From positions 130,186 to 194,185 of the forward strand of contig JABDLF010000002.1 in NCBI GenBank assembly GCA_013003115.1: a stretch of DNA of 64,000 bases, given 5' to 3'. Positions 27,066-46,053 of this stretch are shown piece after piece. This DNA comes from Gammaproteobacteria bacterium. GTDB taxonomy: Bacteria; Pseudomonadota; Gammaproteobacteria; Steroidobacterales; JABDLF01. The translations under genes and the position numbers were made by a program. The notes beneath the pieces were generated by a model. It did not search any database. It saw nothing but the letters and a program-made list of their open reading frames with translations, and was not told the DNA's origin. The stretch's first letter is position 1. Every line of letters begins with the position of its first letter.

Positions 27066-28421
27066 ATGAATGCAGCAGCCGAAGAATTTCGCGAAACACG
27101 CCTGCAGGCCGTGCGCGGCGCGCTCGAAAGTGGCGCCGTTCGCAACGTCCAACGCATGCTGCATTCCCTGCATCCCGCAGAGCTCGGCCGGTTGCTCGAA
27201 TCGCTGCCGCCTGCGGAGCGCACAATCGTCTGGCAACTGGTCGATCCGGATGCGAAGGGCGATGTTCTCCTCGAGGTTAATGACGAAGTCCGCTCAGGGC
27301 TTATTGACAACATGGAGCCAGAGGCACTGGTTGCCGCTACGGGCGACATGGAGGTCGACGACCTTGCTGACGTGTTCGAGGACCTCCCCGAGGCCGTCAT
27401 TACGCAGATTCTGCGGGCAATGGACGTGCAGGACCGGGAGCGCCTCGAATCGGTGCTTGCCTACCCCGAGGACAGCGCCGGCGGCCTGATGAATACCGAC
27501 ACGGTCACGGTGAGGCCGGATGTCTCCCTGGACGTCGTACAGCGCTACCTTCGGTTGAGAGGCAATCTGCCCGACCGCACTGACATCCTGTTCGTGGTCA
27601 ATCGATACGGCCAGTACCTGGGCAGCCTGGGCCTGTCTGCTCTTCTCGTCAGCGACCCGCAGGCAACCGTGGCGGAACTCATGGACACCAGCGTAGAAGG
27701 CATTGTTGCCAACGTGTCCGCCTCAGAGGTAGCCAGGCGATTCGAGGAACGCGATCTCGTATCCGCGCCGGTAACCGACGAGGACAACAGGCTGCTGGGA
27801 CGAATTACCGTTGATGACGTTGTCGACGTCATCCGTGAAGAAGCCGAACACTCGCTGATGAGCATGGCCGGCCTCGATGAGGACGAGGATATGTTTGCCC
27901 CGGTCGTGACCAGCGCCCGCAGGCGGGCCCTGTGGCTCGGTGTCAACCTCGCCACCGCCTTTGTCGCAGCGGGCGTCGTAGGCCTGTTCGAGGCCACTAT
28001 CGACAAAGTTGTCGCACTTGCCGTGCTGATGCCCGTCGTCGCCAGCATGGGCGGAATCGCAGGCGGTCAGACGCTGACTCTGATGATCCGTGGCCTCGCG
28101 CTGGGCCAGGTAGAGAAGTCTAACGCGCGTTTTATGATGGGCAAGGAAATAGCGGTCGGCATCCTCAACGGCATATTCTGGGCGCTGGTTGTCGCCGCCG
28201 TCGTCATGCTCTGGTTTGGAAACTGGCAGATCGGCGCGGTCATAGCCCTTGCAATTACCATCAACATGTTTGTTGCCGCCATTTCCGGGGTTGCGATACC
28301 GCTGTTGTTGCGGCGGCTTGGGGTTGACCCGGCGCTCGCGGGTAACGTGATTCTTACCACCGTCACTGACGTCGTCGGTTTCTTTGCTTTTCTGGGACTT
28401 GGCGCGCTGCTGCTTATCTGA
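27066..28421 (+). CDS. mgtE: Magnesium transporter MgtE
   Basis: MgtE N domain, two CBS domains, five-TM C-terminal domain with GGIAGGQTLTLMIRGLALG. Confidence 0.95.
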   Translation: MNAAAEEFRETRLQAVRGALESGAVRNVQRMLHSLHPAELGRLLESLPPAERTIVWQLVDPDAKGDVLLEVNDEVRSGLIDNMEPEALVAATGDMEVDDLADVFEDLPEAVITQILRAMDVQDRERLESVLAYPEDSAGGLMNTDTVTVRPDVSLDVVQRYLRLRGNLPDRTDILFVVNRYGQYLGSLGLSALLVSDPQATVAELMDTSVEGIVANVSASEVARRFEERDLVSAPVTDEDNRLLGRITVDDVVDVIREEAEHSLMSMAGLDEDEDMFAPVVTSARRRALWLGVNLATAFVAAGVVGLFEATIDKVVALAVLMPVVASMGGIAGGQTLTLMIRGLALGQVEKSNARFMMGKEIAVGILNGIFWALVVAAVVMLWFGNWQIGAVIALAITINMFVAAISGVAIPLLLRRLGVDPALAGNVILTTVTDVVGFFAFLGLGALLLI

Positions 28422-28440
28422 GTCAGCCGCAGGCCGAAGA

Positions 28441-29649
28441 TCAGTTTCCGAGCGCGGCCTCAAGATGACGAGGTGCATCCAGCACTTCAACCGCCTCCCC
28501 TGAAATAAACGGCAGCAGATGGTCCCTGCGCGCCATGGCATCTTCATAACCCAGCTCTATCAGTTCGCGGCAATAGGCCTTCTCGAACAGCAGGTAGCTG
28601 ATGAGCTGGCTGCTACCGGCATTGAATGCGCCAAGCCCGCGCAACAGCAGCCGAACAGACCGTGGGAACTCGGACGCATGCCGCCTGGCGATTTCCCGAA
28701 TGTCCTTGCTCGGCACGATGATCATCGTATCAATGCGCTTTAGATTTTCACCTAGCGACTTCTCGAGCGTGCCGGGCGGGAACTGCGCAACGATCCTGTT
28801 GATGCGCGTAAGGCGCTCGAGATCTGCGTAAAGCCCGTCCAGAAATATCGTATCCAGCATGTAACCTGCAATCTGGCCAAAGCTGGGAAGCGTGGCGCCC
28901 TCGGTCTCGCCGCGCTCGCGGCTGCCCTCATCCCGCACACCAACCACCAGCAGCCGGTCAGCGCCAAGATGCACAGCTGCTGACAGCGGCGCCGACTCGC
29001 GAATGGCGCCATCGCCAAAGAACTCGTCGCCTACCCGCGTGGGCGGGAAAATAAACGGCACCGCAACGGACCCCATAAGATGATCCAGATTTATACGAGT
29101 CCGGCGTCCCTCGCGACGCGAGCGCAGCCAGGGCTTCAGGTCATCGCAGCCTTCGAAAAAAGAAACGGCCCGGGCGCACTCGTACCCGGACGCTGTGACA
29201 GCCAGCGCGTGCAGTGCGCCCGACTCGATGGCCTGCTCAATACCACCAAAATGAATATGGCCTTCCAACAGTTCGCGCAGCGGCGCATTATCGAGGAGCG
29301 ACCTCGGGTTACCGACGCCAAGCCCGCCGGTGGTAAACGTGAGTAACCAGTGCAGGGATGACTTCAGCATCGTCCATGAGTCGGCGCGATAGACCTGCTC
29401 AATGGCAAAATTGCTCCAGACCGCATTAAGCCGCCGCACACCACTTTGAAATCGTCGAGCGTTACTTGCAAGAACCGTGGCATTGATTGCGCCAGCGGAC
29501 ATGCCGGTCATAATGGAGAAGGGGTTCGGGGACCCTGGCGGCATCAGCTCCGCAATCGCCTTCATCGCCCCCACCTGGTAGGCGCCACGGGCACCCCCGC
29601 CCGGCAGAACCAGGCCGATCCGTGGATGCCTAAGGGATTCACCAGCCAT
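28441..29649 (-). CDS. Patatin-like phospholipase
   Basis: GGGARGAYQVGAMKAI oxyanion motif, GMSAG nucleophile elbow, DGAIRESAP. Confidence 0.93.
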   Translation of the reverse strand: MAGESLRHPRIGLVLPGGGARGAYQVGAMKAIAELMPPGSPNPFSIMTGMSAGAINATVLASNARRFQSGVRRLNAVWSNFAIEQVYRADSWTMLKSSLHWLLTFTTGGLGVGNPRSLLDNAPLRELLEGHIHFGGIEQAIESGALHALAVTASGYECARAVSFFEGCDDLKPWLRSRREGRRTRINLDHLMGSVAVPFIFPPTRVGDEFFGDGAIRESAPLSAAVHLGADRLLVVGVRDEGSRERGETEGATLPSFGQIAGYMLDTIFLDGLYADLERLTRINRIVAQFPPGTLEKSLGENLKRIDTMIIVPSKDIREIARRHASEFPRSVRLLLRGLGAFNAGSSQLISYLLFEKAYCRELIELGYEDAMARRDHLLPFISGEAVEVLDAPRHLEAALGN

Positions 29650-29775
29650 AGGTGGAATCCTATTTCATGTGCCCCGCCGGGGCCAGCGACGCCGTCACGT
29701 TTTCCTGTGCAGCGATTTTATGCCTGGCGCGTTTTCGGCTATGCTGCGGCCCCCGTTTGAAAATGGCAGGCCCTC

Positions 29776-30339
29776 ATGAACGCTCTTTTTTCCCGCACTG
29801 TGTTTGCAGCCCTGTTGATATTTTTAGCTGTACCGCTCTCGGCCAGCGCTGGTGCGCCAGCCATCGGTGACGATGCTCCCGCCTTTCGCCTGCAGGACCA
29901 GAACAACGACTGGCATACGCTGGAAGACTACCAGGGCCAATGGGTCGTACTATATTTTTATCCGAAGGCCGATACGCCGGGATGCACAACCGAAGCGTGT
30001 TCGTTCCGCGACGACATTTTCAAGTTCAAGAAAATGGGCGCGAAGATCGTTGGCGTCAGCCTCGATGATGTCGCATCGCAAAAGGAATTCGCAGAAAAAT
30101 ATTCTTTGCCATTCGCGCTGCTGTCGGACGCAAAAAGTCAGACCGCAAAGGACTACGGCGTCCTAGGGAACCTGGTGCTGGCAAAATATGCCAAACGCGA
30201 GACTTTTATCATCTCTCCCACGGGCAAAGTTGCAGCACACTACAAGAAGGTCAACCCGGACAAACACTCCACAGAAGTTCTCGAGGATCTCAAGATGCTG
30301 ATGAAGGAGCAGGCAGGCGAGGCACATGACGCGCCCTGA
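29776..30339 (+). CDS. Exported peroxiredoxin of the PrxQ/BCP subfamily
   Basis: Signal peptide then FYPKADTPGCTTEACSFRDD (paired Cys five residues apart). Confidence 0.93.
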   Translation: MNALFSRTVFAALLIFLAVPLSASAGAPAIGDDAPAFRLQDQNNDWHTLEDYQGQWVVLYFYPKADTPGCTTEACSFRDDIFKFKKMGAKIVGVSLDDVASQKEFAEKYSLPFALLSDAKSQTAKDYGVLGNLVLAKYAKRETFIISPTGKVAAHYKKVNPDKHSTEVLEDLKMLMKEQAGEAHDAP

Positions 30340-30557: not shown

Positions 30558-32966
30558 TCAGGGCGCCGGGACGAGGCGAAGCTGATATCGCGGGGGGCCC
30601 GGCAGAAATGACAGCGGCTCGCCTTTCGCCCATGAATTATGCTGCGAGCCATAGTATGGCGACAGAGGGTGGCCACTCTGACCGCCCGGCATGTGCAGGT
30701 ATCCCTCCTCTTCGCGACCCGGCGAAACACCGAGCCGCTGAGAAGCACCAAAGCCTGGCGCCTGCACACGCGGCATGTTGTTGTCGCCCGGCAATGCCAG
30801 CGCGGGCATGTTGACCAGCTGGCCCAGACCGGGCACAAACTGTGACAGTGGATGCGCTACGCGAACGCGGTTGCGTTCACCCCAGACCCGGTCAGCAAGA
30901 CCGCCGGAATAGCGCTCCTGATAGTAATCAACGGTGTCGTCAACGACATCAAGCATCCAGTCTCGCCAGCTCTCGTAACGCGTCGGCAGCAGGTGGGCAG
31001 GCTGCTGCTCAAGCAGTGTCCAGAGCGCACCTTCCCACTGGCTGCTGTAGATCGAAGTCGACGGCGCAGCTTCACGGGCCTCCGTCGTCAGTTCTTCGAA
31101 AACCTCGTCGAACAAAAAAACGCGCCAGGCGCGCACGAGGCGGAACCCCGCCGAGTCAACGCTTGCCCTCGGGTGCCAGTCGGCGATTGCGGCGCGCAGT
31201 TCGGAGCGCCCGGGTTGGCCCTCGAGTGATTCGTCGTCAAGAAGTTCGAGCAGCAGCTTCTGCCAGCGCTCCAGGAACAATGCCCGGTCATCCAGCTGCA
31301 GCCACAGCATGTCGGCCTCGTTCGCTGATTCCATTGCGGTCAGCGAATCCCGAATCTGGGCCGCACGGGCGCCCAGGTCGTAGCCGCCGTCACCCAGAAA
31401 CCTGAGCCCTTCGGCATCAACGACGCGGGCGTTCGCCGTCCAGATCTGGCCACCGGGCGGGTTGAAGATCCGCGGATACTCCCGAGCCTCGTACCAGCCC
31501 TGCCAGCCGACACCCGGGTCCGCCCATGAGGATGCGTAGCGCGAATCGTAGCCCGCGCGCCGGGGAACACGGCCGAGAATCGTCCAGCCGATGTTGCCCT
31601 TGCGGTCGGCCACCACGAAGTTTTGCGGTGGCGCGCCAATGCCGTTGGCAATCTCGAGGGCGGAAACAACGTCTTTCGCTCCGGCTAAATCAATGATCCC
31701 GGAGTTGACCGCCTCCGGCTCGTGCGCAAGCCATTTGAGCGCAAGCAGCCTGCCCTCGTGATCTTCTCCAATAACAGGCCCCCAGCGAGTCCATTGAAAG
31801 CTCACCGGCTCAGCATCCCCGCCTTTGACCGGAATGCTCTGTTCATACGTCGTAAATGCCTCGTAGCCGTCGCCCACGCGGTAACGAGACGCATCCTCAG
31901 GATCAACCTCGATGATTACGAGGTCCGACCAGTCACCATAGCTATTGGTAAAACCCCAGGCGACGTTCCGGTTGCTCCCGACGATGACGCCAAACGTGCC
32001 GGGCAAAGTAACGCCCGTCACATCAATGGCCGGGACGTCGTCTGCAGAACCGCGAATTACCAGCCTTGCCTGGTACCACACGTTCGGCAGGCCATGCCCA
32101 AGATGCATGTCGTTGGCGAGTATCGCCACGCCGCTTTCTGTGCGGGAACCATGCAGCGCCCAGTTGTTGCTCCCCGGCACCATGTCGTGCCCTTGTTCGC
32201 TGCGATCCGCAACGCTGGCCGTCTTCTCCGGCTGCGCAGGCGGCAGCGTATAAACGTCTGCCCCCGGCACCGGCAGCGGGCTGCGCGCTTCACCCACAAC
32301 CGGGGCGTCCCACGGCGTGCCGTCCTGCGTCAGGAAAGCGAAGTAAGGGGCCGGGTAGACATCGCGCAAGGCCGTCAGCATCCCATCACGGGACGCCAGC
32401 TCATCAGTGAGCTGAAAGAACATTGCATAGACGACCAGCAGCAGGTCTTCGGGCTGCCACTCTCGTGGATGGGCGTTAAGCAGTAAATACTCGAACGGCC
32501 TCGCTCTCAGCTGCGCAAGCCCGGCATTGACGCCCGCGGTGTAGCTTTCAATGAGACGGCGTTCACTCGGCTCCAGTGTCTTAAGGCGTGCGACCGCAAG
32601 ATCACGCAATCGATGCCTGCGGCGCGACTTATCGAGAGGCACAGGCCCTTCACCCAGCAGCTCCGCCAGTTCACCGGCAGCTGCGCGCCGCGCCATGTCC
32701 ATTTGAAAAAAGCGCTCCTGCGCGTGCAGATATCCCAGCGTACGCGCCAGGTCAGACCAGTTTCCGGCGGTAATGCGGGGCCGTCCGTGAAGGTCTCTCT
32801 CGATGCTGACCGGCGCCTTAAGCCCGGCAATGCTGATTTCGCCCTCGATGGCAGGCAAGCTTCCGCGCAGTGCCAGCGACAACGCCACGAAAGCAAGTGA
32901 AAGCACGACGAAAATGGCGATCACAGAAAAGCCGAGGTAGCGCCAGCTGCGTCGGACGAAGCTCAT
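30558..32966 (-). CDS. Penicillin acylase family (Ntn-hydrolase) protein
   Basis: GSNNWALHGSRTESGVAILANDMHLGHGLPNVWYQARL; N-terminal TM or signal anchor. Confidence 0.93.
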   Translation of the reverse strand: MSFVRRSWRYLGFSVIAIFVVLSLAFVALSLALRGSLPAIEGEISIAGLKAPVSIERDLHGRPRITAGNWSDLARTLGYLHAQERFFQMDMARRAAAGELAELLGEGPVPLDKSRRRHRLRDLAVARLKTLEPSERRLIESYTAGVNAGLAQLRARPFEYLLLNAHPREWQPEDLLLVVYAMFFQLTDELASRDGMLTALRDVYPAPYFAFLTQDGTPWDAPVVGEARSPLPVPGADVYTLPPAQPEKTASVADRSEQGHDMVPGSNNWALHGSRTESGVAILANDMHLGHGLPNVWYQARLVIRGSADDVPAIDVTGVTLPGTFGVIVGSNRNVAWGFTNSYGDWSDLVIIEVDPEDASRYRVGDGYEAFTTYEQSIPVKGGDAEPVSFQWTRWGPVIGEDHEGRLLALKWLAHEPEAVNSGIIDLAGAKDVVSALEIANGIGAPPQNFVVADRKGNIGWTILGRVPRRAGYDSRYASSWADPGVGWQGWYEAREYPRIFNPPGGQIWTANARVVDAEGLRFLGDGGYDLGARAAQIRDSLTAMESANEADMLWLQLDDRALFLERWQKLLLELLDDESLEGQPGRSELRAAIADWHPRASVDSAGFRLVRAWRVFLFDEVFEELTTEAREAAPSTSIYSSQWEGALWTLLEQQPAHLLPTRYESWRDWMLDVVDDTVDYYQERYSGGLADRVWGERNRVRVAHPLSQFVPGLGQLVNMPALALPGDNNMPRVQAPGFGASQRLGVSPGREEEGYLHMPGGQSGHPLSPYYGSQHNSWAKGEPLSFLPGPPRYQLRLVPAP

Positions 32967-32978
32967 GAGACCCTGACG

Positions 32979-35330
32979 TCAGTCGTTGCGGGTGTCGGCG
33001 GGCGCGCTTGTTGACTCAGGGTAGAGCCAGCTTGCGATCGCCGGGAGGAGCAGCAGCGCACCCAGCATATTCACGATGAACATGAAGGTCAGCAGGATAC
33101 CCATATCGGCCTGGAACTTGAGCGGCGAGAAAATCCAGGTGCCTACACCGACGGCGAGTGTAACGCCGGTCACCAGCACGCCGTTACCGGCAATGCGCAG
33201 GGTCTTGAGATACGCGTCCGGCACGTTCATGCCTCGCTTGGTGCGCAGATGGTTGAAGCGCGCGAATATATAAATGCCATAGTCCACGCCGACGCCCACG
33301 CCGAGGGCGACCACGGGCAAGGTCGAGACCTTGAGGCCGATTTCCAACACGGTCATCAGCGCATAGGCGAGCAGCGACACCAGACCTAATGGCAGGACAA
33401 TACAAAGCACCGCCCGGAAGCTTCTGAAAACCGCCCAACAGAGCAGGATAACGGCGGAGAACACGCCAACAAGAATCGGGAACTGCGCTGCCTCCACGTC
33501 CTCGTTGGTGGCCGCCATAACGCCAACGTTGCCGGTCGCCAGCCGGTATTTCACCTTGTCGCCCGGATTTTCAGCGCGGTACGTCTTGACCGCCGCAACG
33601 ATGCGCTCGATCGTCGTGGCCTTGTGGTCGGTCGTAAACATGTGCACCGGCATCACGCTGCAGTCTGCGTTGAGCAGACCACTGCTGGTGGGCACATATG
33701 TCGTGACCTGCACCAGAACCGAGGTGTTACGAGGGATCACCCGCCATTTCAGCGACCCCTCGTTCCAGCCCGCATGCACGAGCTTGCTGACCACCGGCAG
33801 GGAGATCGCGCTCTGCACGCCGGGAATGTTGCTCATGTACCAGGTGAAATCGTCAATTTGCTTCATCACGTCATAGTCGATGCAGCCGTCCTTGGGCGCC
33901 TCTACGATGACTGAAAGAAGGTCCACACCGATGGAAAACCGCTCGGTGATAAGCCGGCTGTCGATGTTGTACTGCGAGTTTGTGCGAAGTTCCGGCACGC
34001 CTGGATGCAAATCACCGATCTTGATGCCGGTGCCCTTCCACAGCCCGAAACCGAGCAATACAAAGGCCACTGCGAGTACAACCGTCGCGTGGCGGCGCTC
34101 CGCCACCCAGTCCAGCGCAATCCAAAGTGGCTCAAAAAACTTCGCCGCGCGCACGAGTCTGAGCTTGTAATCTTCATCGTAATTGACATAGCTGAGCAGC
34201 ACCGGCAACAGCCAGAAATTCGTGAAACCAATCACGATCACGCCGATACTGGCGATAATTGCCATTTCCTGGATCGCCTGGATCTGGATCAACAGGATGG
34301 TAATGAAACCGATGGTGTCACTGGACAGGGCTATGTAGCCCGGCAGCAGCAAGCTGCGGAAGCTCGTCTTTGCGGACTCCAGCCCGTTCTGGCCTTTGAA
34401 CACGGAGGCGCGCGCCATGCTGACCATCTGCACCGCGTGACTGACGCCGATCGCGAAAATAAGAAACGGAACAAGTATTCCCAGCGGGTCGATGCCGAAG
34501 CCGAACGCAAACAGCAGGCCGAGCTGCCAGATCACCGCTACCGTCGCACAGGCAAGCGGAATCAGGGTCAGACGCCACGAGCGCGTGTAGAAGCCAACGA
34601 ACAGCGCGGTGATGATGAAGGCGACGCCAAAAAACATCACCACCATGCGCGCGCCATCGGATATGTCACCGATAGCTTTAGCAAATCCGATTATATGAAC
34701 GTCTACATTTTCATCCTGGAACTTGTTGCGAATCTTGGTTTCAAGTTCTTGCGCCACCATCATGTAATCGAGGGGTTCACCGCTGACAGGGTCTGCCTCC
34801 AGCAGCTCAGCGCTGATGATTGCACCGGAAAAATCGCTGGCTACCAATCGGCCCACGATGCCGGCCTTGAGTACGTTTTTGCGAACCTGCTCAATGCCCT
34901 CGTCGGTGGGCCTGAAGTCTGCGGGCACAACGTTGCCGGCAGAAATACCGTCAGCTGTCACCTCGGTGAAACGCACATTGGGCGTAAACAGGGATGAGAC
35001 GCGCGTCCGGTCAACGCCTGAGATGAAGAACACCTCGTCGGTCGCGAGCTTCAAGGTATTCATGAATTCCGGCGTGTAGATGTTGCCGTCGCGGGCTACC
35101 AGCGCAACGATAACCCTGTTGGCACCGCCAAACTGGTCTCGGTACTCCACGTAGGTCTGCATGTATTCATGATTGACCGGGACGCTTTTGGTAAAGCTGG
35201 TATCAATGCGAAAACCGGACACTACTGAAAAGAGCATTGCTGCGGTGATAATGGCAAACAGCCAGATGATGGCGATGCGATTGCCGAATATCAGCCGCTC
35301 GAGAAAACCTGCAATGTCAATTTTGGCCAT
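32979..35330 (-). CDS. RND superfamily / MMPL-domain transporter
   Basis: About 12 TM in two halves with two large periplasmic loops; GVGVGVDYGIYIFARF. Confidence 0.92.
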   Translation of the reverse strand: MAKIDIAGFLERLIFGNRIAIIWLFAIITAAMLFSVVSGFRIDTSFTKSVPVNHEYMQTYVEYRDQFGGANRVIVALVARDGNIYTPEFMNTLKLATDEVFFISGVDRTRVSSLFTPNVRFTEVTADGISAGNVVPADFRPTDEGIEQVRKNVLKAGIVGRLVASDFSGAIISAELLEADPVSGEPLDYMMVAQELETKIRNKFQDENVDVHIIGFAKAIGDISDGARMVVMFFGVAFIITALFVGFYTRSWRLTLIPLACATVAVIWQLGLLFAFGFGIDPLGILVPFLIFAIGVSHAVQMVSMARASVFKGQNGLESAKTSFRSLLLPGYIALSSDTIGFITILLIQIQAIQEMAIIASIGVIVIGFTNFWLLPVLLSYVNYDEDYKLRLVRAAKFFEPLWIALDWVAERRHATVVLAVAFVLLGFGLWKGTGIKIGDLHPGVPELRTNSQYNIDSRLITERFSIGVDLLSVIVEAPKDGCIDYDVMKQIDDFTWYMSNIPGVQSAISLPVVSKLVHAGWNEGSLKWRVIPRNTSVLVQVTTYVPTSSGLLNADCSVMPVHMFTTDHKATTIERIVAAVKTYRAENPGDKVKYRLATGNVGVMAATNEDVEAAQFPILVGVFSAVILLCWAVFRSFRAVLCIVLPLGLVSLLAYALMTVLEIGLKVSTLPVVALGVGVGVDYGIYIFARFNHLRTKRGMNVPDAYLKTLRIAGNGVLVTGVTLAVGVGTWIFSPLKFQADMGILLTFMFIVNMLGALLLLPAIASWLYPESTSAPADTRND

Positions 35331-35348
35331 GCCTGTTGCTATCCTGCC

Positions 35349-36449
35349 CTAAGGGGCATCGCCGCTGCTTGCTGACTGACCGGGGACAATAGTATTCACC
35401 CCATTTTCGCCGATAAGAATCAGTTCGCCAGAATTGCCGGGCATCAGGGTTGCCAGCGCCTTGCGGTTTTCCTGCTGGAGCAATGAAAAGACCGGTGGGC
35501 CGCCGCTCGTGCTTTCAGCAACAAGCAAGGTACCGCCGAGGCCCACCACTGCGGGAGAGCCGTCGACGATAGCTCCGCCCATGAATATGGCATCGGTGTT
35601 GACATCAATCTGCTGCCAGCTTTGACCACCGTCGGCCGAGTAAAACAGGTTGCCTCTCAGGCCATAAACCAGAAGGCTGTTTTCACCCAGCGGCAACGTC
35701 CCGTAGAACGAGCCTTCGTAGGGGCTTGGCAGTTCCTTCCAGGTTTCACCTACATCATCAGATCTGAAAATGTGACCCGCCTCGGCGGCAAGAAACAGGG
35801 CGCCGTCGGGCGCGGATCGGATATCGTTGAGATGCAGATCGCTGATGGGATCTTCATCATCAAGGAAGTCCATCATGTCTGCGATGCTGACTTCCTTCTC
35901 TTCTTCGTCCGTCTCGTCTGCAGCCTCGTCGTCGCCCACGACTTCGAAAAACCTGTCTTCCCAGGTCTCACCGCCGTCGAAAGTCTCGAGGAAATATCCG
36001 TAGGCGCCGATCACAATGCCGTGCGAAGAGTCCTCAAACCAGACGTCAAGCAGAGGCCGCTCCTCGTCGGGCGCAAAATGCACACGAGTCCAGGTGGCAC
36101 CGCCGTCACTGGTCTTGATGATGACGGCGTCGTGGCCAACAGCCCAGCCGTTTTCCCGGTCGCTGAAGAATACGCCCGTCAGCGTTGCCCGGGTCGGTAC
36201 TCTCACTTGTTCCCAGGTATTGCCCATATCTTCGCTCAGGAGGACATGGCCACGCTCACCTACAACAACCATCAGGTCATCGATAAGTGTGCCATCAAGC
36301 AAAAGGGTCTGCGGAGCAAGAGGGGCAATGATGGACCATTGCAAATCGTCTGGCGCATCTTCTGCCAGCGAGTCATTCACAAGCCCGAGCGGCATCACCA
36401 AAACGCTCAGGCAACACCATGTTCTCAGCCAGCTCAGACTCAATAACAT
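35349..36449 (-). CDS. YCF48/BNR-repeat beta-propeller exported protein
   Basis: Signal peptide; repeated SEDMGNTWEQV, SDGGATWTRV, FDGGETWED, SDDVGETWKEL, SADGGQSWQQI. Confidence 0.88.
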   Translation of the reverse strand: MLLSLSWLRTWCCLSVLVMPLGLVNDSLAEDAPDDLQWSIIAPLAPQTLLLDGTLIDDLMVVVGERGHVLLSEDMGNTWEQVRVPTRATLTGVFFSDRENGWAVGHDAVIIKTSDGGATWTRVHFAPDEERPLLDVWFEDSSHGIVIGAYGYFLETFDGGETWEDRFFEVVGDDEAADETDEEEKEVSIADMMDFLDDEDPISDLHLNDIRSAPDGALFLAAEAGHIFRSDDVGETWKELPSPYEGSFYGTLPLGENSLLVYGLRGNLFYSADGGQSWQQIDVNTDAIFMGGAIVDGSPAVVGLGGTLLVAESTSGGPPVFSLLQQENRKALATLMPGNSGELILIGENGVNTIVPGQSASSGDAP

Positions 36450-36533
36450 GCACGGTCCCCAGTGCTCGCCGACTGCCGTATCGGCAAAGAGACCGCCGGG
36501 CCTATGCGCAGCCCGGCAGTCGCATCATTATTT

Positions 36534-37913
36534 TTAGCGCGTCCCGGCCCGTCGCAGGGCTGCAGGCGTAAAGTCAGACAACGTCAGTGGCGGACTGAAA
36601 TCGTAGGTAAACGATTCTTCGTTGTTAAGGCCAAGCGCCAGATAGCGCCCTGACTGCAGGTCCGTCGTCACTTCCAGCGTTGTCCAGTAGTTGGGCTCAT
36701 CGTAGTAATTGATTCCGAAGCCTTCCTGTACACGCCACAGCTCGTCGCGATTGTCATAGCAGTCCACCGCTACAATCTGCCAGCTGTCTTCGTCGATGTA
36801 GAACGTCCTGCGCTTGTAAATATGGCGCGTGCCGTCCTTCAGCGTCGCATCTACGACCCATACACGGTGCAGCTCATAGCGCAGCAGCTCAGGATTGACG
36901 TGCAGCGGCGCAAGAACCTGGTCGTACTTGACCTTGTCGCTGTGCAGCTTGTAGTTGTTGTACGGGACGTACATTTCTTTCTTGCCGACCAGCTTCCAGT
37001 CATAGCGCTCGGGGCTACCGTTGTACATGTCAAACTGATCGCTGGTTGCCAGACCGTCGGAACCGTCGCGCGGGTTATCGAAGGCGACGTTCGGCGCCCT
37101 CCTCACCCGACGCTGGCCCGGGTTGTACAGCCACGCCTTGCGAATTTCCTTTTCCTGGTCAAGAGTCTCATGCACCAGCAGAATCTGTCCGGCAAGACGG
37201 GCCGGCGCAGTGATTTTCTGTCGGAAATAAACAATGACGTTGTTCAGCGCCTCTTCCGTCATGCCGGGCTCAAAGTACGCACCCTTGAACTCGTCTTCGA
37301 ACTTCACCAGCGTATAGCTGCCGTCACGCGTCACCGCCGCCTGGCCGATGTTGCGAGCAGCGTTTACGGTGCGATAACGCAGTATGTGGTTCCAGATTGC
37401 TTCCAGACCATTCGCCGGGATGGGGAACGGCACGCCGCTGATTGTCCCAGTAACCGCATTGCCGCTGGGCTTGAGCTCAGCCGTTGCTGCGGCAGCGCGC
37501 GTCGCCTCGTAAATACGTTCCGGAAACGCAGCGGAGCGGCGGGTCTGATATACGTTCATAGAATACGAATCGTAGGCGGAGAGCATCGCCTTATGGCCCT
37601 CAGTCAGCTTGTCCGCGTACTGGGCCATATTGCCCTTGTCGACCTTGAACTGAACCTGATCGGCTGCAAACGGATCGGGATGGTGCCCGCCCGTCTTGAA
37701 GTCGGGGAATCCAGCGTCTGCGGCCGACTTAATTCCGCCCGTCCAGGCCGGGATCGTTGCGTCCGCGTTGCCGGCACGTTCGGCTCCCATGGGCGTGAGA
37801 TCGGTGCCGAGACGAGCCAGCTGATCGGGGGGCAGCTTCGCCACAGCCGGGCTGCTCATTGCCAGCGTTAACAGCGTGGCGGCAAGTAAATGTTTTGCAT
37901 CTCGATGCATCAT
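36534..37913 (-). CDS. DUF1329 family exported protein
   Basis: Signal peptide, LARLGTDLTPMGAERAGNADATIPAWTGGI; adjacent to DUF1302. Confidence 0.9.
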   Translation of the reverse strand: MMHRDAKHLLAATLLTLAMSSPAVAKLPPDQLARLGTDLTPMGAERAGNADATIPAWTGGIKSAADAGFPDFKTGGHHPDPFAADQVQFKVDKGNMAQYADKLTEGHKAMLSAYDSYSMNVYQTRRSAAFPERIYEATRAAAATAELKPSGNAVTGTISGVPFPIPANGLEAIWNHILRYRTVNAARNIGQAAVTRDGSYTLVKFEDEFKGAYFEPGMTEEALNNVIVYFRQKITAPARLAGQILLVHETLDQEKEIRKAWLYNPGQRRVRRAPNVAFDNPRDGSDGLATSDQFDMYNGSPERYDWKLVGKKEMYVPYNNYKLHSDKVKYDQVLAPLHVNPELLRYELHRVWVVDATLKDGTRHIYKRRTFYIDEDSWQIVAVDCYDNRDELWRVQEGFGINYYDEPNYWTTLEVTTDLQSGRYLALGLNNEESFTYDFSPPLTLSDFTPAALRRAGTR

Positions 37914-37928
37914 GCAATCTCCTTAAAA

Positions 37929-39950
37929 CTAGAACGCGTACTTAACGACGAGCGAAATAAAATCTCGATCGTTCACCAAGTTATACCGCTCAGCCCCGAA
38001 AAAGTTCGTAAACTTAAGTTGAGCTTCCCACGCAGACTGGTAAGTAGCGGTCAAACCCAGCGTGTACGCCTTGCGGTCTTCCAGAAAGTTTCCGCCTGGC
38101 CCGGGAGAAACACCCGACACGTCATGATTCCATGCAATGCTCGGTGCCAGGTTTATGCCTTTGTAAACGCTGTTGTAGCGCAGCGCACCAACAAGACGAT
38201 AACCCCATGAGAAGTCGTCGGCGAAATGACTGGCGTCTTCGATAACGCCAACGGCCGTTGGTGAGTGCACGGTTCCGGTGGCCGCTAGGTCAGCGTTGCC
38301 ACTGATGAACGTACCCGGGCCATCAAAGCGCAGCACGTCCTTTGAGGGCATATCGTGTACCCAGTTGAAGCCAACTTCACCCAGAATAACCAGCTGGTCG
38401 GCCCCAAACCGGCGCGGGTAAATTTGCGTGGCCGTAAACTGCATCTGGCTCACATCCAGCCGTCGATAACCCTGGATATTCTCCTCGACATCAAAGTCAC
38501 CGAGCTGCCCGAATGTGCCGAATACGGTTCGGCCGAAATCATCCAGGGGCGCGAGGGCTGCAAACAAAACCTCCAGGTCATCCACCTGCAGGGGCACGTC
38601 CTGGCGGAATGAGTACTCGCCTTGTAACGCCGTATCACCGATGGTGGTGTTGAAGCTCACGCCGTATAGCTTGATATCTTCCGGGTACTCCGTGTAGTAG
38701 CCCGAGCCTTCGGCCAGGGAGTCGGTCACGAAATTCGGTACGTCTGCGGCGCCTATGGCACCGGCTAGCAGCGCGTCTACGATAAATGTCGCGGTTGCGG
38801 TCAGCTCGGCCGTCACCGCAGCGTCAACGCTGCCGCCCTTACCAATAATCTCGCCCTGGCCGCGCGCGACCGCCGCAGCAATCGCCGCGTCGCGGTCACC
38901 GGCCGGCACGCCCAACGGTATGCAGCCGCCGGACAGACAGGTCGCGCCTGTCCCAACCGCCCAGGCGTTGCCGTAGCCCTGAAAGTCGGTGGTGCGACCG
39001 CTCGCGATGGGCAGGCGGCTGTGATAGTTCACGAAGTAGAAGCCCAGGTCGGTGCCGCCGAAGATCTCGGAGTAATAGCGGAAATTGATGCCGAATTGGC
39101 CCTGGTCATCCGGACGCGGGGTCGTTTGACGACGAACGTCAAGAAAATTGCCTTCGGGTACGCCACCAAAGCCGAGCATCACAAATTCGGCGCCCGGGCC
39201 GCCTATGTCCGAGCCGCTGAAATATGTGCCGGTCGGATCAGGGATCGTGGGCTCCCAGCGCAGCTGATAGAAAGCTTCCATGCTCAGCGCATCGGTAAGC
39301 CCGATGTTGCCCGAAATCATGGGAACAGGGATGAGGGCCTCACGGAGTTCGCCGCCAGGTGTACGAATAGCACTAACGTCGATGGGGTTGATCGTGTTGA
39401 TGCTGTTCTGGATAAAGGTGCTTTCGCCCCAGCTCAGCACCTGCTGGCCGGCGCGTATTTCAGCCGGCATATCGGAGACGTCAAAATTTATCCAGGTGTA
39501 GGCATCGAGCAAACGGATGTCCGAACCGACCCTGTCAAGCGCCTGCTGAGAAAGCGGTGTCCTGTCACGAGGGCCGCCGTTTTCGTTTTCGGTGTCGTAA
39601 AAATAGGTACCGCGAACGAACGCGCCGATATTTTCATAGACCATCTCGACTTCGCTGACGACCTTGAAAATATTGCTGATGGTGCCCGTGTCGTAGTTGA
39701 GGTTACCGTCGTCAGCGTTAACACCAAAAGCTGTGCCGCCGTTGGCGATACCGATGATCGCCGGGTCTCTGCTTTCGACCCGCCAGGCGTTGCCCCAGGA
39801 CAAGGTGGTGTCCCAGCTTCCGGTAATGGTGCCGTCCTTGAATTCGAACTGGATGGCCTGAGCCGGCGTGGCCAGCAACATACTGACGAGGAATCCTGCA
39901 CCGAGTGTACGCAGCAAGTGAACACGCCCGGAAGCCGGCTTGTTATTCAT
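37929..39950 (-). CDS. DUF1302 family outer-membrane beta-barrel protein
   Basis: Signal peptide MNNKPASGRVHLLRTLGAGFLVSMLLATPAQA; amphipathic strands; terminal LVVKYAF; trimmed from ORF start 39974. Confidence 0.88.
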   Translation of the reverse strand: MNNKPASGRVHLLRTLGAGFLVSMLLATPAQAIQFEFKDGTITGSWDTTLSWGNAWRVESRDPAIIGIANGGTAFGVNADDGNLNYDTGTISNIFKVVSEVEMVYENIGAFVRGTYFYDTENENGGPRDRTPLSQQALDRVGSDIRLLDAYTWINFDVSDMPAEIRAGQQVLSWGESTFIQNSINTINPIDVSAIRTPGGELREALIPVPMISGNIGLTDALSMEAFYQLRWEPTIPDPTGTYFSGSDIGGPGAEFVMLGFGGVPEGNFLDVRRQTTPRPDDQGQFGINFRYYSEIFGGTDLGFYFVNYHSRLPIASGRTTDFQGYGNAWAVGTGATCLSGGCIPLGVPAGDRDAAIAAAVARGQGEIIGKGGSVDAAVTAELTATATFIVDALLAGAIGAADVPNFVTDSLAEGSGYYTEYPEDIKLYGVSFNTTIGDTALQGEYSFRQDVPLQVDDLEVLFAALAPLDDFGRTVFGTFGQLGDFDVEENIQGYRRLDVSQMQFTATQIYPRRFGADQLVILGEVGFNWVHDMPSKDVLRFDGPGTFISGNADLAATGTVHSPTAVGVIEDASHFADDFSWGYRLVGALRYNSVYKGINLAPSIAWNHDVSGVSPGPGGNFLEDRKAYTLGLTATYQSAWEAQLKFTNFFGAERYNLVNDRDFISLVVKYAF

Positions 39951-40116
39951 AATTTTCCTCCAAAGAGATCGCACGAATCCTGCAGGCTTGTTTAGATCTG
40001 ATTATGCCTGACCAGTCGGACCCGGGAAACGCGGGAATCGATGACCGCGTAACACAGTTATAAGTCGTGCCAGCGCACGGCCCCCCGGGCATTGCTGTAC
40101 TAAGCCCTGCGAAGCG

Positions 40117-40144
40117 AATATACACGGGTTTTTTAGAAAAAGAA
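40117..40144 (-). promoter_or_regulatory. Candidate promoter for the DUF1302-to-penicillin-acylase cluster
   Basis: Minus strand TTCTTT - 16 bp - TATATT. Confidence 0.4.
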
Positions 40145-40145
40145 T

Positions 40146-40158
40146 TGTGCACTGCACA
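40146..40158. promoter_or_regulatory. 13-bp palindrome TGTGCACTGCACA next to the candidate -35
   Basis: TGTGCA-C-TGCACA perfect dyad. Confidence 0.55.
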
Positions 40159-40279
40159 CAAACTCGCTGGAGCGTAGTTTCTAAGCAACAATCGGGCTCG
40201 AAGCGTTATTCTGCCTTGGCTTCCGGGTGTGTCGAAGTCACTCGTTGTTGCACCGCTCCGGGCGCCCCCAACCCTTTAA

Positions 40280-41764
40280 TTACTGCGCTTCTTCAGGCGC
40301 AATATCCACAAGATCCGTATCGCCCGCGCGGATGATTTTCATTGTGTTGGTGCCACCGCTGACCCCTCGAAAATCACCAAATGTCACGATGATTACGTCA
40401 CCTTGCCTGACCTTGCCCGCCTTCTGCAGTCGCTGCGCAGCAGCATCCACGACGTCTTCCCGCTCCACCGACACCACATCAAACGTCACCGGGTAAACAC
40501 CTCGGTAGAGCGTGACCCGACTGCGCGTCTTCTCATGACGCGTAAAGGCATAAATCGGAATTCCGCTGCTTATCCGCGACATCCACAGGGCAGACGAACC
40601 TGACTCTGTGAGCGCAATTATGGCGCGCGTCGGCAGGTGATTCGCAGTGTACATACAGGCCATGGCAATGGCCTCATCTGCGCGCTTGAAAAGCGCGTTG
40701 AGGCGATGACCCGACGTCATCGTGGCCCTCTGTTTTTCGGCGCCGACGCATATCCGCGCCATCGCCTCGACCACCTTTACCGGGTATTTGCCGGTGGCTG
40801 TCTCGGCGGAAAGCATAACTGCGTCCGTACCGTCCATCATCGCATTGGCGACGTCCATCACTTCCGCGCGCGTCGGCACCGGGCTCGTGATCATAGACTC
40901 CATCATCTGCGTCGCCGTAATCACCACCTTATGGGATTCGCGCGCAGCATGAATAATCTGCTTCTGGACCGCAGGCAGCTCTTCGTCTCCTATTTCGACG
41001 CCCAGGTCGCCCCGCGCGACCATCACGGCATCGCTGACCGCAAGAATGTTCTCGAGGTTGTCTATCGCCTCTGCGCGTTCAATCTTTGCGACGATGCCGC
41101 CAACGCCACCCTCCTTTTCGAATCGCCGGCGGGCTTCCTCAACGTCGTCGGCGTCTCTCGGGAACGACACGGCGAGATAATCAACGTCGAGCTTCGCCGC
41201 CAGCACAATGTCTTCGAAGTCTTTCTCAGTCAGCGCCGCAGCCGACAGGCCACCGCCTTTGCGGTTAATGCCTTTGTTGTTTGACAGTCGCCCCCCCTGC
41301 TGCACGCGGCAGCGTATGGCACTGCCCTCAACGGCCATCACCTCGAGGCTGATCGCACCGTCGTCAAGCAGCAGAATGTCGCCCTTGCTGACATCCTGCG
41401 GCAGATCCTTGTAGGTCAGCCCTACCTGCTTCTCATTTCCGTCATCGCGCCCAAGCTCAGCGTCCAGCGTGAATGACTGGCCTTCCTTGAGGTCAATGGG
41501 GCCGTTGCGAAAACGATCGATGCGGATCTTGGGGCCCTGAAGATCCCCCAACACGCCCACGGATTTGCCGAGTTCAGCGGCCGCCGCGCGCGCAGCCTTC
41601 ACACGCTTGCCATGATCTCCGGCGCTGCCGTGGGAGAAATTGATGCGCACGACGTCGACACCAGCCTGCAAAATTGCGCGCATGATTTTCGGGTCATCGG
41701 TACCCGGGCCGAGAGTAGCAACAATTTTTGTGCGCCTTGTCATCGGTGCTGTCTGGTCTTGCAT
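40280..41764 (-). CDS. pyk: Pyruvate kinase
   Basis: RRTKIVATLGPGTDDP, MVARGDLGVEIG, SAETATGKYPV. Confidence 0.97.
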   Translation of the reverse strand: MQDQTAPMTRRTKIVATLGPGTDDPKIMRAILQAGVDVVRINFSHGSAGDHGKRVKAARAAAAELGKSVGVLGDLQGPKIRIDRFRNGPIDLKEGQSFTLDAELGRDDGNEKQVGLTYKDLPQDVSKGDILLLDDGAISLEVMAVEGSAIRCRVQQGGRLSNNKGINRKGGGLSAAALTEKDFEDIVLAAKLDVDYLAVSFPRDADDVEEARRRFEKEGGVGGIVAKIERAEAIDNLENILAVSDAVMVARGDLGVEIGDEELPAVQKQIIHAARESHKVVITATQMMESMITSPVPTRAEVMDVANAMMDGTDAVMLSAETATGKYPVKVVEAMARICVGAEKQRATMTSGHRLNALFKRADEAIAMACMYTANHLPTRAIIALTESGSSALWMSRISSGIPIYAFTRHEKTRSRVTLYRGVYPVTFDVVSVEREDVVDAAAQRLQKAGKVRQGDVIIVTFGDFRGVSGGTNTMKIIRAGDTDLVDIAPEEAQ

Positions 41765-41779
41765 GAGGCCCTCCGGCAG

Positions 41780-42958
41780 CTAATCTTTGTTCCGGGCACG
41801 AGCCTCTAAAACAGCGACGGCCGGCAGGGTCTTGCCTTCCAGAAATTCAAGGAATGCGCCGCCTCCGGTTGAAATATATGACACGCCGTCTGCGACGCCG
41901 AATTTGTCTATGGCCGCAAGGGTATCGCCGCCGCCCGCCACCGAGAACGCAGCGCTGCCCGCTATGGCCTCGGCCAGCACGCGGGTACCGTCGGCGAAGG
42001 CATCAAATTCAAAAACACCGACTGGCCCATTCCAGACGATAGTGCCGGCGTCGCTCAGCATTGCGGCGTAATTTCGTGCCGTCTCCGGACCAATATCCAG
42101 CACCATCTCGCCAGGCTCTACCTCGCTTACCGCTCGAACCACCGGGTTTGCATCGGCAGCGAAGTGATCCGCGACGACGACGTCAACGGGCTGGGGAATC
42201 GCTGCCCCGCGCTCCCGGGCGATTCGCGCGAGCTTTTGCGCCTGGGGTACGAGGTCGGGTTCGAAAAGCGACTTGCCAACTTCGTGCCCTTCGGCCGCAA
42301 TAAAAGTATTGGCAATGCCTCCGCCCACAATAAGCTGATCAACCTTGTCCAGCAGCGACTCAAGCACCGTCAGCTTTGTCGACACCTTGGAGCCGCCGAC
42401 TATGGCCACGAGAGGGCGCGCAGGCTCGTGCAGCGCCTTGCCCAGTGCGTCCAGTTCACCGCACAGCAGCGGACCTGCACAGGCGATCGGCGCAAGCCTT
42501 GCAACGCCTTCCGTTGACGCCTGCGCGCGATGCGCGGTGCCAAAGGCATCCATAACAAATACGTCGCACAGAGATGCGATGCGTCTTGCAAGGTTTTCGT
42601 CGTTGCTTTTTTCGCCAACGTTGAAACGCACGTTTTCTAAAAGCGTGATTTCTTCTGCGATGAGTTCTACGCCGTCGAGCCAGTCCCGAACCAGGCGTAC
42701 CGGCCGGCCTGTCAGTGCCTGCAGAGACCCGGCGACCGGAGCGAGGCTCGCCGCTTCCTCGAAGTGCCCTTCCTTCGGGCGCCCGAGGTGCGACATCACC
42801 ATGACCTTGGCACCCGCCTCCAGTGCCGCAACGATCGTAGGAACTGCCGCGCGTATGCGGGCATCGCTCTGCACAACACCGTCGGCAACGGGCACGTTCA
42901 GATCCTCACGGATCAGCACACGCTTGCCGCCAAGCTCTACATCTTGCATGCGCAGCAT
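41780..42958 (-). CDS. pgk: Phosphoglycerate kinase
   Basis: [47 protein letters not shown]. Confidence 0.97.
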
Positions 42959-42988
42959 GTCTAGTGCCTCGCAGCGGCGCAGGTCATG

Positions 42989-44002
42989 TCAGCGCGCCTT
43001 GATCAGCGCGCGGGTCGTATCCAGCATGCGGCAGGAGAAGCCCCATTCGTTGTCATACCAGGAGCAGACCTTCACAAAGCGCTTGCCCATCATGCGGGTA
43101 AGCGACGAATCATACGAAGATGACGCGGGGTCGTGGTTAAAGTCGATGGATACCAGCGGCTCATCGATGTAAGCCAGGATTCCTTTCAGCGGACCCTCAG
43201 CGGCCTCTTTCATGAGCTTGTCTACTTCCTCGACGCTGGTGTCGCGTGCCGCTTCGAAGGTCAGGTCGACCATGGAAACGTTGATGGTCGGAACGCGAAT
43301 TGCGAACCCGTCCAGGCGCCCCTTCAGATCAGGCAGGACAAGCCCGACTGCGGCAGCCGCGCCTGTTTTTGTGGGAATCATGGACATGGTCGCCGAGCGC
43401 GCGCGGCGCAGATCGGAATGATAGACGTCGGTCAGCACCTGGTCGTTGGTATAGGCATGGATCGTCGTCATCAAACCATGCACGACGCCAATTGCGTCAT
43501 TAAGCGGCTTCACCAGGGGCGCAAGACAGTTGGTCGTGCAGGATGCGTTGGAAATGACCGTATCGCTGCCTTTCAGCGTGTCGTGGTTTACCCCGTAAAC
43601 GATGGTAGCGTCGATATCGCCGCCGCCGGGCGCCGAGATTACGACCTTCTTTGCCCCTGCCTGCAGATGACCCGAGGCCTTCGCCTTGTCGCGGAAGAAG
43701 CCCGTGCACTCAAGCACGACATCAACTTCGAGTTTCTTCCAGGGCAGGTCAGCGGGATTCCGCTCCGCGCAAACGAGGATACGATCACCGTTAACGATCA
43801 TATAGTCGCCTTCGACGCTGACCGTGCCCGGAAACTTGCCGTGCGCTGTGTCGTAGCGCGTCAGGTGCGCGTTGGTGTTTGCGTCGCCAAGATCATTGAC
43901 TGCAACGATCTGCAGTTCCCCGGTGCGCTCGCCTTCGTACAGCGCCCGAAGTATGTTTCGGCCAATACGCCCATAGCCATTGATTGCAATCCTCGTCGGC
44001 AT
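42989..44002 (-). CDS. gap: Glyceraldehyde-3-phosphate dehydrogenase
   Basis: [10 protein letters not shown], catalytic [12 protein letters not shown]. Confidence 0.97.
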
Positions 44003-44058
44003 TTTTAGATGCTCCCCTTAGGTTCTCTGAAACAGATCGTTTCTGAATGTGTGCGCTT

Positions 44059-46053
44059 TTATAACATCGCTCGCAGCGTGCCCGCGACATTTTCCTCGGT
44101 AAATCCGAGAAATTTGAAAATTTCCCCGGCAGGCGCCGACTCCCCGAAGCGATCGATGCCGATCACCCTGCCCTCGTCACCTACGTAGCGATGCCAACCC
44201 GAGCTCACCCCCGCTTCCAGCGCCAGGCGGCAGCGAACAGCAGGCGGGAGAACGGTTTCACGGTACTCGCGGCCCTGGGCGTCAAAGACTTCTCGACAGG
44301 GCATAGACACGACCCGCACCCGGCGCCCCTCATTCCCCAGGGACTTCGCCGCCGCCACGGCGAGTTCAACCTCAGAACCCGTCGCAATAATTATCGCCTC
44401 GGGGTTCCCATCGCCTGACTGCCAAAGCGTATAGCCGCCGCGCGCAATTGCCGCAATCTGGTCATCGGCCCTGGTCTGCTGTGGCAGAGTCTGGCGAGTC
44501 AGCGCCAGTACCGCTGGCCCGTTGGCACGCTGAAGAGCCGCTTGCCAGGCAGCGACCGTTTCAACAACGTCGCAGGGACGCCAGACATGCATGTTCGGAA
44601 TCAGCCGCAGGCTCTCTACGTGCTCGATTGGCTGATGGGTTGGGCCGTCTTCACCGAGACCCACCGAATCATGGGTCATTACGAAGATGTTTCGCAGGCC
44701 CATCAATGCTGCCATACGCAGCGCGTTGCGCGCATAGTCGGTGAACACCAGGAACGTCCCGACGTAGGGCAGGCAACCGCCATGCAATACAAGGCCGTTG
44801 CCGATGGCCGCCATGGCGAATTCACGCACGCCAAAATAGAGATAGTTGCCCGCAGAGTTGTCGGCGCTCAGCGTCGACGAGCCCGACCAGCGCGTGTTAT
44901 TGGAGCCTGTAAGGTCCGCGGATCCGCCGATCAGCTCGGGCAGCCCCGGCCCGAACCCCTCCAGGGCAAACTGTGAAGCCTTGCGCGTCGCCATGTTTTT
45001 CTGCCCGGCCGCCGAACGGAGCAGTTCGTCGGCTCGTGCCGCGAATTCATCCGGCAACGTGCCGCCGACTCGCCGCGAAAACTCGGCGGCGAGCTCCGGA
45101 AAGGCCTGCGTGTATTTCTCAAACAGATCCTGCCAGCCGCGTGTGCGCGCGGCGCCTGGTTTCCGCGCATCCCAGGCCGCGCGAATATCGGTGGGTATCT
45201 CGAAGGCCGGGAATCGCCAGCCAATCCTCTCGCGAGCAAGGACAATTTCGTCCTCGCCCAGCGGGGCACCGTGGCTGTCCGCAGTGCCGGCCTTGTTCGG
45301 CGATCCCCACCCTATGACGGTCTTGCAGCAAATCAGGCTTGGCCGAGAGGCTTCGTCGCGGGCTGCCTGCAGCGCGCTCGTTATCGCTTGCGGATCGTGT
45401 CCGTCTACGTCGCGAATGACCTGCCAGCCATAAGCCTCGAAGCGTGCTGGCGTGTCATCGGTAAACCAGCCCTGCACCTCTCCGTCAATGGAGATGCCGT
45501 TGTCGTCGTAAATACAGATCAGTTTGCCGAGACCAAGGGTTCCGGCCAGCGAACAGGCCTCGTGAGAAATCCCTTCCATGAGGCAGCCGTCGCCGGCGAA
45601 CACCCAGGTATGGTGATCAACGATGTCGAACCCGGGCTTATTGAACCGGGCCGCCAGGGCGCGTTCGGCGATTGCCATTCCGACGGCATTGGCCAGCCCC
45701 TGGCCGAGAGGACCGGTCGTTGTCTCCACGCCCGGTGTCAGGCCGTACTCGGGGTGGCCCGCTGTTTTTGCGTGCAGCTGCCGGAAATCACGAAGATCAT
45801 CGAGGGACAGCGCATACCCGCTCAAGTGCAGCAGCGAATAGATCAGCATAGAGCCGTGGCCATTGGAGAGTACGAATCTGTCGCGATCCGGCCAGGCCGG
45901 GTCTTGCGGGTCATGGCGCAGAAAGTCATTCCACAGCACCTCCGCAATATCCGCCATGCCCATCGGCATCCCGGGATGACCCGAGCGGGCACGCTGAACC
46001 GCGTCCATGCTGAGGGCGCGAATGGCGTTTGCTAACTCCCGGCGGGTGGGCAT
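44059..46053 (-). CDS. tkt: Transketolase
   Basis: [50 protein letters not shown]. Confidence 0.97.

Follow-up and report, generated by a model that had tools for sequence, protein, structure and literature searches.

An AmeABCD-type transport cassette between pyk and a penicillin-amidase-family acylase in a gammaproteobacterial genome

Genes A to E and their families

In a stretch of 64,000 nucleotides (the window) from contig JABDLF010000002.1 of the Gammaproteobacteria assembly GCA_013003115.1 (order Steroidobacterales; positions 130,186 to 194,185 of the forward strand), five genes, here called A to E, lie head to tail on the minus strand from position 39950 to 30558, with intergenic gaps of 15, 84, 18 and 12 nt (A-B, B-C, C-D and D-E). 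A first-pass annotation read the run as one envelope system, in which a trans-envelope conduit for hydrophobic molecules is joined by an acylase that contributes an acyl-amide processing step. By comparing the run with other genomes of the order and the class, we arrive at a different account: genes A to D are a known and widespread transport cassette, and the joining of all five into one "system" most likely came about by accident, when that cassette was relocated.

The family assignments of the five open reading frames (ORFs) are far beyond chance in Pfam. Gene A (37929..39950; 673 aa) encodes a DUF1302 outer-membrane beta barrel of the AmeA type (PF06980, E 2.5e-175), with a signal-peptide-like N-terminus and a C-terminal KYAF (the protein ends in ...VVKYAF). 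Gene B (36534..37913; 459 aa) encodes a periplasmic DUF1329 protein of LolA fold and AmeB type (PF07044, E 1.3e-155; LolA_like also matched, 6.3e-13), and gene C (35349..36449; 366 aa) an exported YCF48-like propeller of the AmeC type (PF14870, PSII_BNR/YCF48, E 4e-23). Gene D (32979..35330; 783 aa) encodes an HAE3-like MMPL/RND inner-membrane transporter of the AmeD type (MMPL, E 3.4e-21). Gene E (30558..32966), of the penicillin-amidase family of N-terminal nucleophile (Ntn) hydrolases, matches PF01804 (Penicil_amidase) at E 4.3e-153 over positions 1-665 of 675, and its product is predicted to be membrane-anchored or periplasmic. Within the cluster, to which the search for them was confined, there is no membrane-fusion adaptor (MFP) or TolC gene; the run differs in this from a standard tripartite RND exporter (HAE1 + MFP + TolC), whose operon includes both.

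Structural models add to these assignments. The model of gene B (pLDDT, the predicted local distance difference test, of 88) matches LolA3 (9tp6; E 7.7e-17, template modelling (TM) score on the target 0.82) and a solved DUF1329 structure (4z48; E 5.4e-16), placing the protein in the LolA fold. The AlphaFold model of gene A (pLDDT 78) is a barrel resembling porin, Occ and AlgE folds. A FadL-like barrel was considered for DUF1302 and rejected, the best PDB matches being porins, Occ channels and AlgE at a TM score of 0.3-0.4 of the query; such model matches would indicate a beta barrel and little beyond.

The contiguous series DUF1302, DUF1329, YCF48-like and RND, in that order, is the series of ameABCD, which serves monoterpene tolerance in Castellaniella defragrans and whose deletion lowers that tolerance and raises Nile Red accumulation (PMC6394551). 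Its authors term it a tetrapartite HAE3-type RND system, conserved in both composition and order (PMC6394551). The likeness of the window's genes (four families in identical order, a putatively HAE3-like RND protein, two periplasmic proteins, an outer-membrane barrel, and neither TolC nor MFP) is one of families and gene order; a difference is that the window cassette lies outside any monoterpene island, and that its homologues in the same order of bacteria adjoin plsB. The top NCBIfam model for gene D is HAE3 (TIGR00921, E 1.6e-35), at 122 bits under a cut-off of 352. By best model match gene D would share its RND subfamily with HpnN and BstA, which transport the lipids hopanoid and sterol respectively, but it scores far under the cut-offs of those models; HpnN reportedly acts with no periplasmic or outer-membrane partner dedicated to it (PMC6394551). 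In Pseudomonas putida, growth on Tween 20 requires a similar set, made up of DUF1302 and DUF1329 proteins, a periplasmic protein and an RND transporter, with predicted contacts among them (PMC10866462), although their genes (PP_0765/PP_0766 and PP_2018/PP_2019) occupy two separate loci whereas those of the window are contiguous. A related cluster is strongly expressed in a benzene degrader (PMC13101534).

The cassette is present in many genomes of the window's order and, outside that order, in most of the 40 loci compared from the class. It also occurs on plasmids of three strains, Pseudomonas sp. MPC6, Massilia sp. WG5 and Azoarcus sp. KH32C, with no acylase listed nearby in the plasmids. Genes A to D are a known cassette for moving hydrophobic molecules across the envelope, already described in outline. 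Much of the first-pass annotation stands accordingly: ORF positions and Pfam confirm five tightly packed minus-strand genes, a barrel ending in KYAF and an MMPL-type pump in a non-standard RND arrangement; the LolA_like match and the confident model agree with its Lol-type fold for DUF1329; and its four-gene conduit, with families that recur together, is supported by the match to the published cassette.

Several variants of the cassette were seen along the way. Loci L182 and L183 (genomes G285 and G389) each carry two cassettes in tandem (A-B-B-C-D, then A-B-C-D plus an extra B), which suggests duplication with specialisation for cargo. In family f16 (L122 and L123; also L113-L116) the plsB-linked cassette is B-C-D, the DUF1302 gene not being recognisable, while elsewhere a second gene for DUF1329 stands by itself, with about 69% identity to that of the window. 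The barrel may have been lost or exchanged for another, or the solitary DUF1329 protein may be partnered with a different barrel. The genome under study has a second, weak DUF1329 match of its own (G000:C77:5953-6171, L002) at 24.1 bits, barely above the cut-off.

The acylase and its pyk neighbourhood

Like other acylases of the penicillin-amidase family (D-succinylase, glutaryl-7-ACA acylase, PvdQ), gene E has the Gly-Ser self-cleavage site and the Asn. Its Gly265, the Ser266 that follows it, and Asn512 are invariant in 9 homologues, and the family domain is full length. Among solved structures it is closest to D-succinylase (7eby), aligned near full length at 2.1e-45, and against the PvdQ model it scores 39 where the cut-off is 950. 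Because E is a full-length Ntn acylase with an invariant Gly265-Ser266 site and Asn512, its sequence suggests that it is probably active.

The genomic company of this acylase is glycolytic. Of 20 acylase loci from the order, 17 show the run tkt-gap-pgk-pyk-acylase, truncated in some by the end of a contig, and in most of these pyk-linked loci a block of peroxiredoxin, patatin and mgtE follows the acylase, as it does in the window. The acylase starts within -4 to 13 nt of pyk in 13 loci, comprising 10 of the same order and three contigs of metagenome-assembled genomes (L004, L029 and L032), and for this reason we regard the two genes as an old and tight pair. In the 59 genomes compared within the order, acylase orthologues of full length, at about 45-53% identity, lie on other contigs than the DUF1329 orthologues, or some 70 kb or more away, and they retain the pyk neighbourhood whether or not the genome has genes A to D. 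None of the 66 acylase loci surveyed contains any of genes A to D, and none of the cassette loci searched, whether same-order or class-level, has an E-type acylase beside it; among the loci searched, the linkage exists in this genome only.

The window shows the pyk-acylase order of its relatives with A to D placed between. The left flank of the empty site consists of pyk, pgk, gap and tkt (40280..46053, minus strand), which directly precede E in relatives, and the right flank of peroxiredoxin (plus), patatin (minus) and mgtE (plus) at 27066..30339; both flanks were recognised by synteny, and Pfam supports patatin and AhpC-TSA. The upstream insertion junction is the 329-nt spacer between pyk and gene A (39951..40279, minus strand), presumably the promoter or leader of the cassette, in which a single promoter-like match and a single terminator-like one were found, both weak and near chance. 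The downstream junction is the 12-nt D-E spacer (32967..32978, minus strand), and to judge by that short gap E is probably co-transcribed with A to D.

Gene E is thus tied to the cassette by position alone. The gene-neighbourhood survey of whether the acylase is conserved beside A to D, fixed in advance as a point on which the five-gene idea could fall, went against that idea: the gene is at home beside pyk and is not conserved next to the cassette. Neither a system that includes acyl-amide processing nor a unit of all five genes is supported, the linkage having been found in a single genome. Among the papers searched, none pairs DUF1329 with penicillin acylase. The single other case of an acylase next to A to D, at the class-level locus L154 (15813-18719), was set aside as a distant homologue (27%) that is divergent and upstream of A.

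Two further features of the acylase neighbourhood were observed. Other insertions occur in the pyk-acylase gap of L090, L093, L094 and L006 (in f16 an SDR gene, in L006 some 2.5 kb), and the gap may be a recurrent insertion point. In L096, L098, L099, L101, L102, L104 and L105, which represent several families, an AAA ATPase and a VWA/CoxE-like gene follow the acylase as a pair on the same strand; the window lacks the pair.

Origin of the present site

Within the order the usual place of the cassette is plsB-A-B-C-D, followed in several loci by suhB, a DEAD helicase and rho; plsB lies upstream of it in 14 loci. In the genome under study plsB is on another contig (G000:C5; L132, 1-5372), where the interval between plsB and suhB is empty of A to D and holds slyX (named from its sequence), trhO and a GAF gene. 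A clean excision was considered for this interval and rejected: trhO and GAF were sought in L109-L187 and are present in L132 alone, and in no cassette locus, which makes the interval a replaced slot. In trees confined to same-order sequences, the closest branch to the window's D is that of family f16, its sister (94/98), and the window's B falls within the f9/f11 group (99/97); both of these are plsB-linked. Foreign DNA was likewise tried as an explanation and rejected, as the GC content, third-codon-position GC (GC3) and 4-mer composition of the cassette are unremarkable and like those of its neighbours, and no long flanking repeats were found at its junctions.

The simplest and most likely account is that the cassette moved within the lineage from its plsB site to the place between pyk and the acylase. 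Taken as a whole, the reading of an AmeABCD-type transport cassette relocated from plsB into the pyk-acylase gap, with E as no conserved partner, is one that we hold to be probable. Several points weigh against it. Relatives of the same family or genus are absent from the comparison set, and for that reason the move cannot be dated; the genome is 82% complete and a second cassette copy could be missing from it; the branch of the window's D is long (0.71); and class-level D homologues reach 64% identity, so that transfer from outside the order is possible, as is a loss followed by re-acquisition of a related plsB-linked cassette.

This last course of events, in which the copy at plsB disappeared and a cassette came in again later, by horizontal transfer, between pyk and the acylase, is the alternative that survives best, and we consider it unlikely. 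The long D branch, the homologues at 60-64% identity in other orders and the carriage of such cassettes on plasmids would all accord with it, but window D and B group with plsB-linked relatives (in trees confined to the order), GC and GC3 match the neighbours, and the junctions lack a long repeat. A genuine five-gene unit, in which the acylase would process N-acyl amides or lipopeptides carried by A to D and the relocation was selected for co-expression, is very improbable: the same-strand D-E gap of just 12 nt and the intact catalytic Ser266 and Asn512 speak for it, but an insertion into the tight pyk-E junction would leave just such a gap, the acylase orthologues stay at pyk regardless of the cassette, and neither survey found the two side by side in another genome. 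That A to D were wrongly joined into the glycolysis region during assembly is less credible still, for although the source genome is fragmented (115 contigs) and a misjoin could occur, two false joins would be required, each exactly in an intergenic gap, within a 201-kb contig that is collinear with relatives on both sides, while A to D are absent from their usual site on another contig.

Possible cargo and direction of transport

The genes around homologues of the cassette bear on its cargo. Lipid genes (plsB, wax-ester synthase (WS/DGAT), fadD, fadA, fadB/ECH and VolA-like lipase) neighbour 32 of 68 A-D loci, whereas among 66 acylase loci with the same summed length 1 has such a neighbour, an enrichment that is overstated, as the probes were picked from the test loci; 14 of the 32 represent one inherited plsB linkage. 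A VolA-like lipase (PF12262) lies near gene A in seven loci and, in L161, about 27 nt upstream on the same strand. Such a lipase, or a relative from its cluster, was seen upstream of DUF1302, mostly on the same strand, in L150, L151, L153, L160, L161 and L168, and divergent in L144 and L145 (assigned by Pfam in L161 and L168, and by clustering and BLAST in the other loci). In Vibrio cholerae, VolA acts as a lysophospholipase and releases fatty acids, which can then be taken up (PMC9496633). Cassettes on named plasmids lie near genes for a fatty acid-CoA ligase, or for an acyl-CoA dehydrogenase and a thiolase.

These neighbours, and the LolA-fold model of DUF1329, favour an acyl or other hydrophobic cargo, and the lipid genes, lipase linkage and plasmid neighbours together make acyl lipids our best guess for the ancestral cargo. 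More tentatively, and with somewhat more doubt than belief, we hypothesize that the ancestral job of the cassette in Gammaproteobacteria was fatty-acyl lipid trafficking tied to phospholipid and fatty-acid metabolism, and that efflux of monoterpenes and hydrocarbons is a later specialisation. Replacement of FadL by the cassette was also considered and rejected: an anti-correlation would be expected, but FadL-family matches occur in 7 of 24 genomes with DUF1329 and in 10 of 35 without, so there is no association.

We propose that D, as an RND pump in the inner membrane driven by the proton gradient, would hand hydrophobic (probably acyl-chain) molecules to B, which C may keep near D as a scaffold; B, as a LolA-fold carrier, would shield the cargo across the periplasm, and A, the outer-membrane barrel, would exchange cargo with B and pass it through the outer membrane. 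By analogy with RND precedents and the dye data from Castellaniella, outward transport is slightly favoured, although the Tween 20 phenotype and the lipase linkage could indicate inward transport.

The observation behind the five-gene reading is correct, and its transport half is reasonable and known in outline; what is unusual is the location of the cassette. Its analysis removes a false lead, the acyl-amide processing step, and shows how little weight the adjacency of two genes carries when it is seen in a single genome. For an envelope system of four parts that is widespread, and whose families still go by the names DUF1302 and DUF1329, acyl lipids become a class of cargo open to testing, and the plsB and lipase linkages point to the first mutants and assays.

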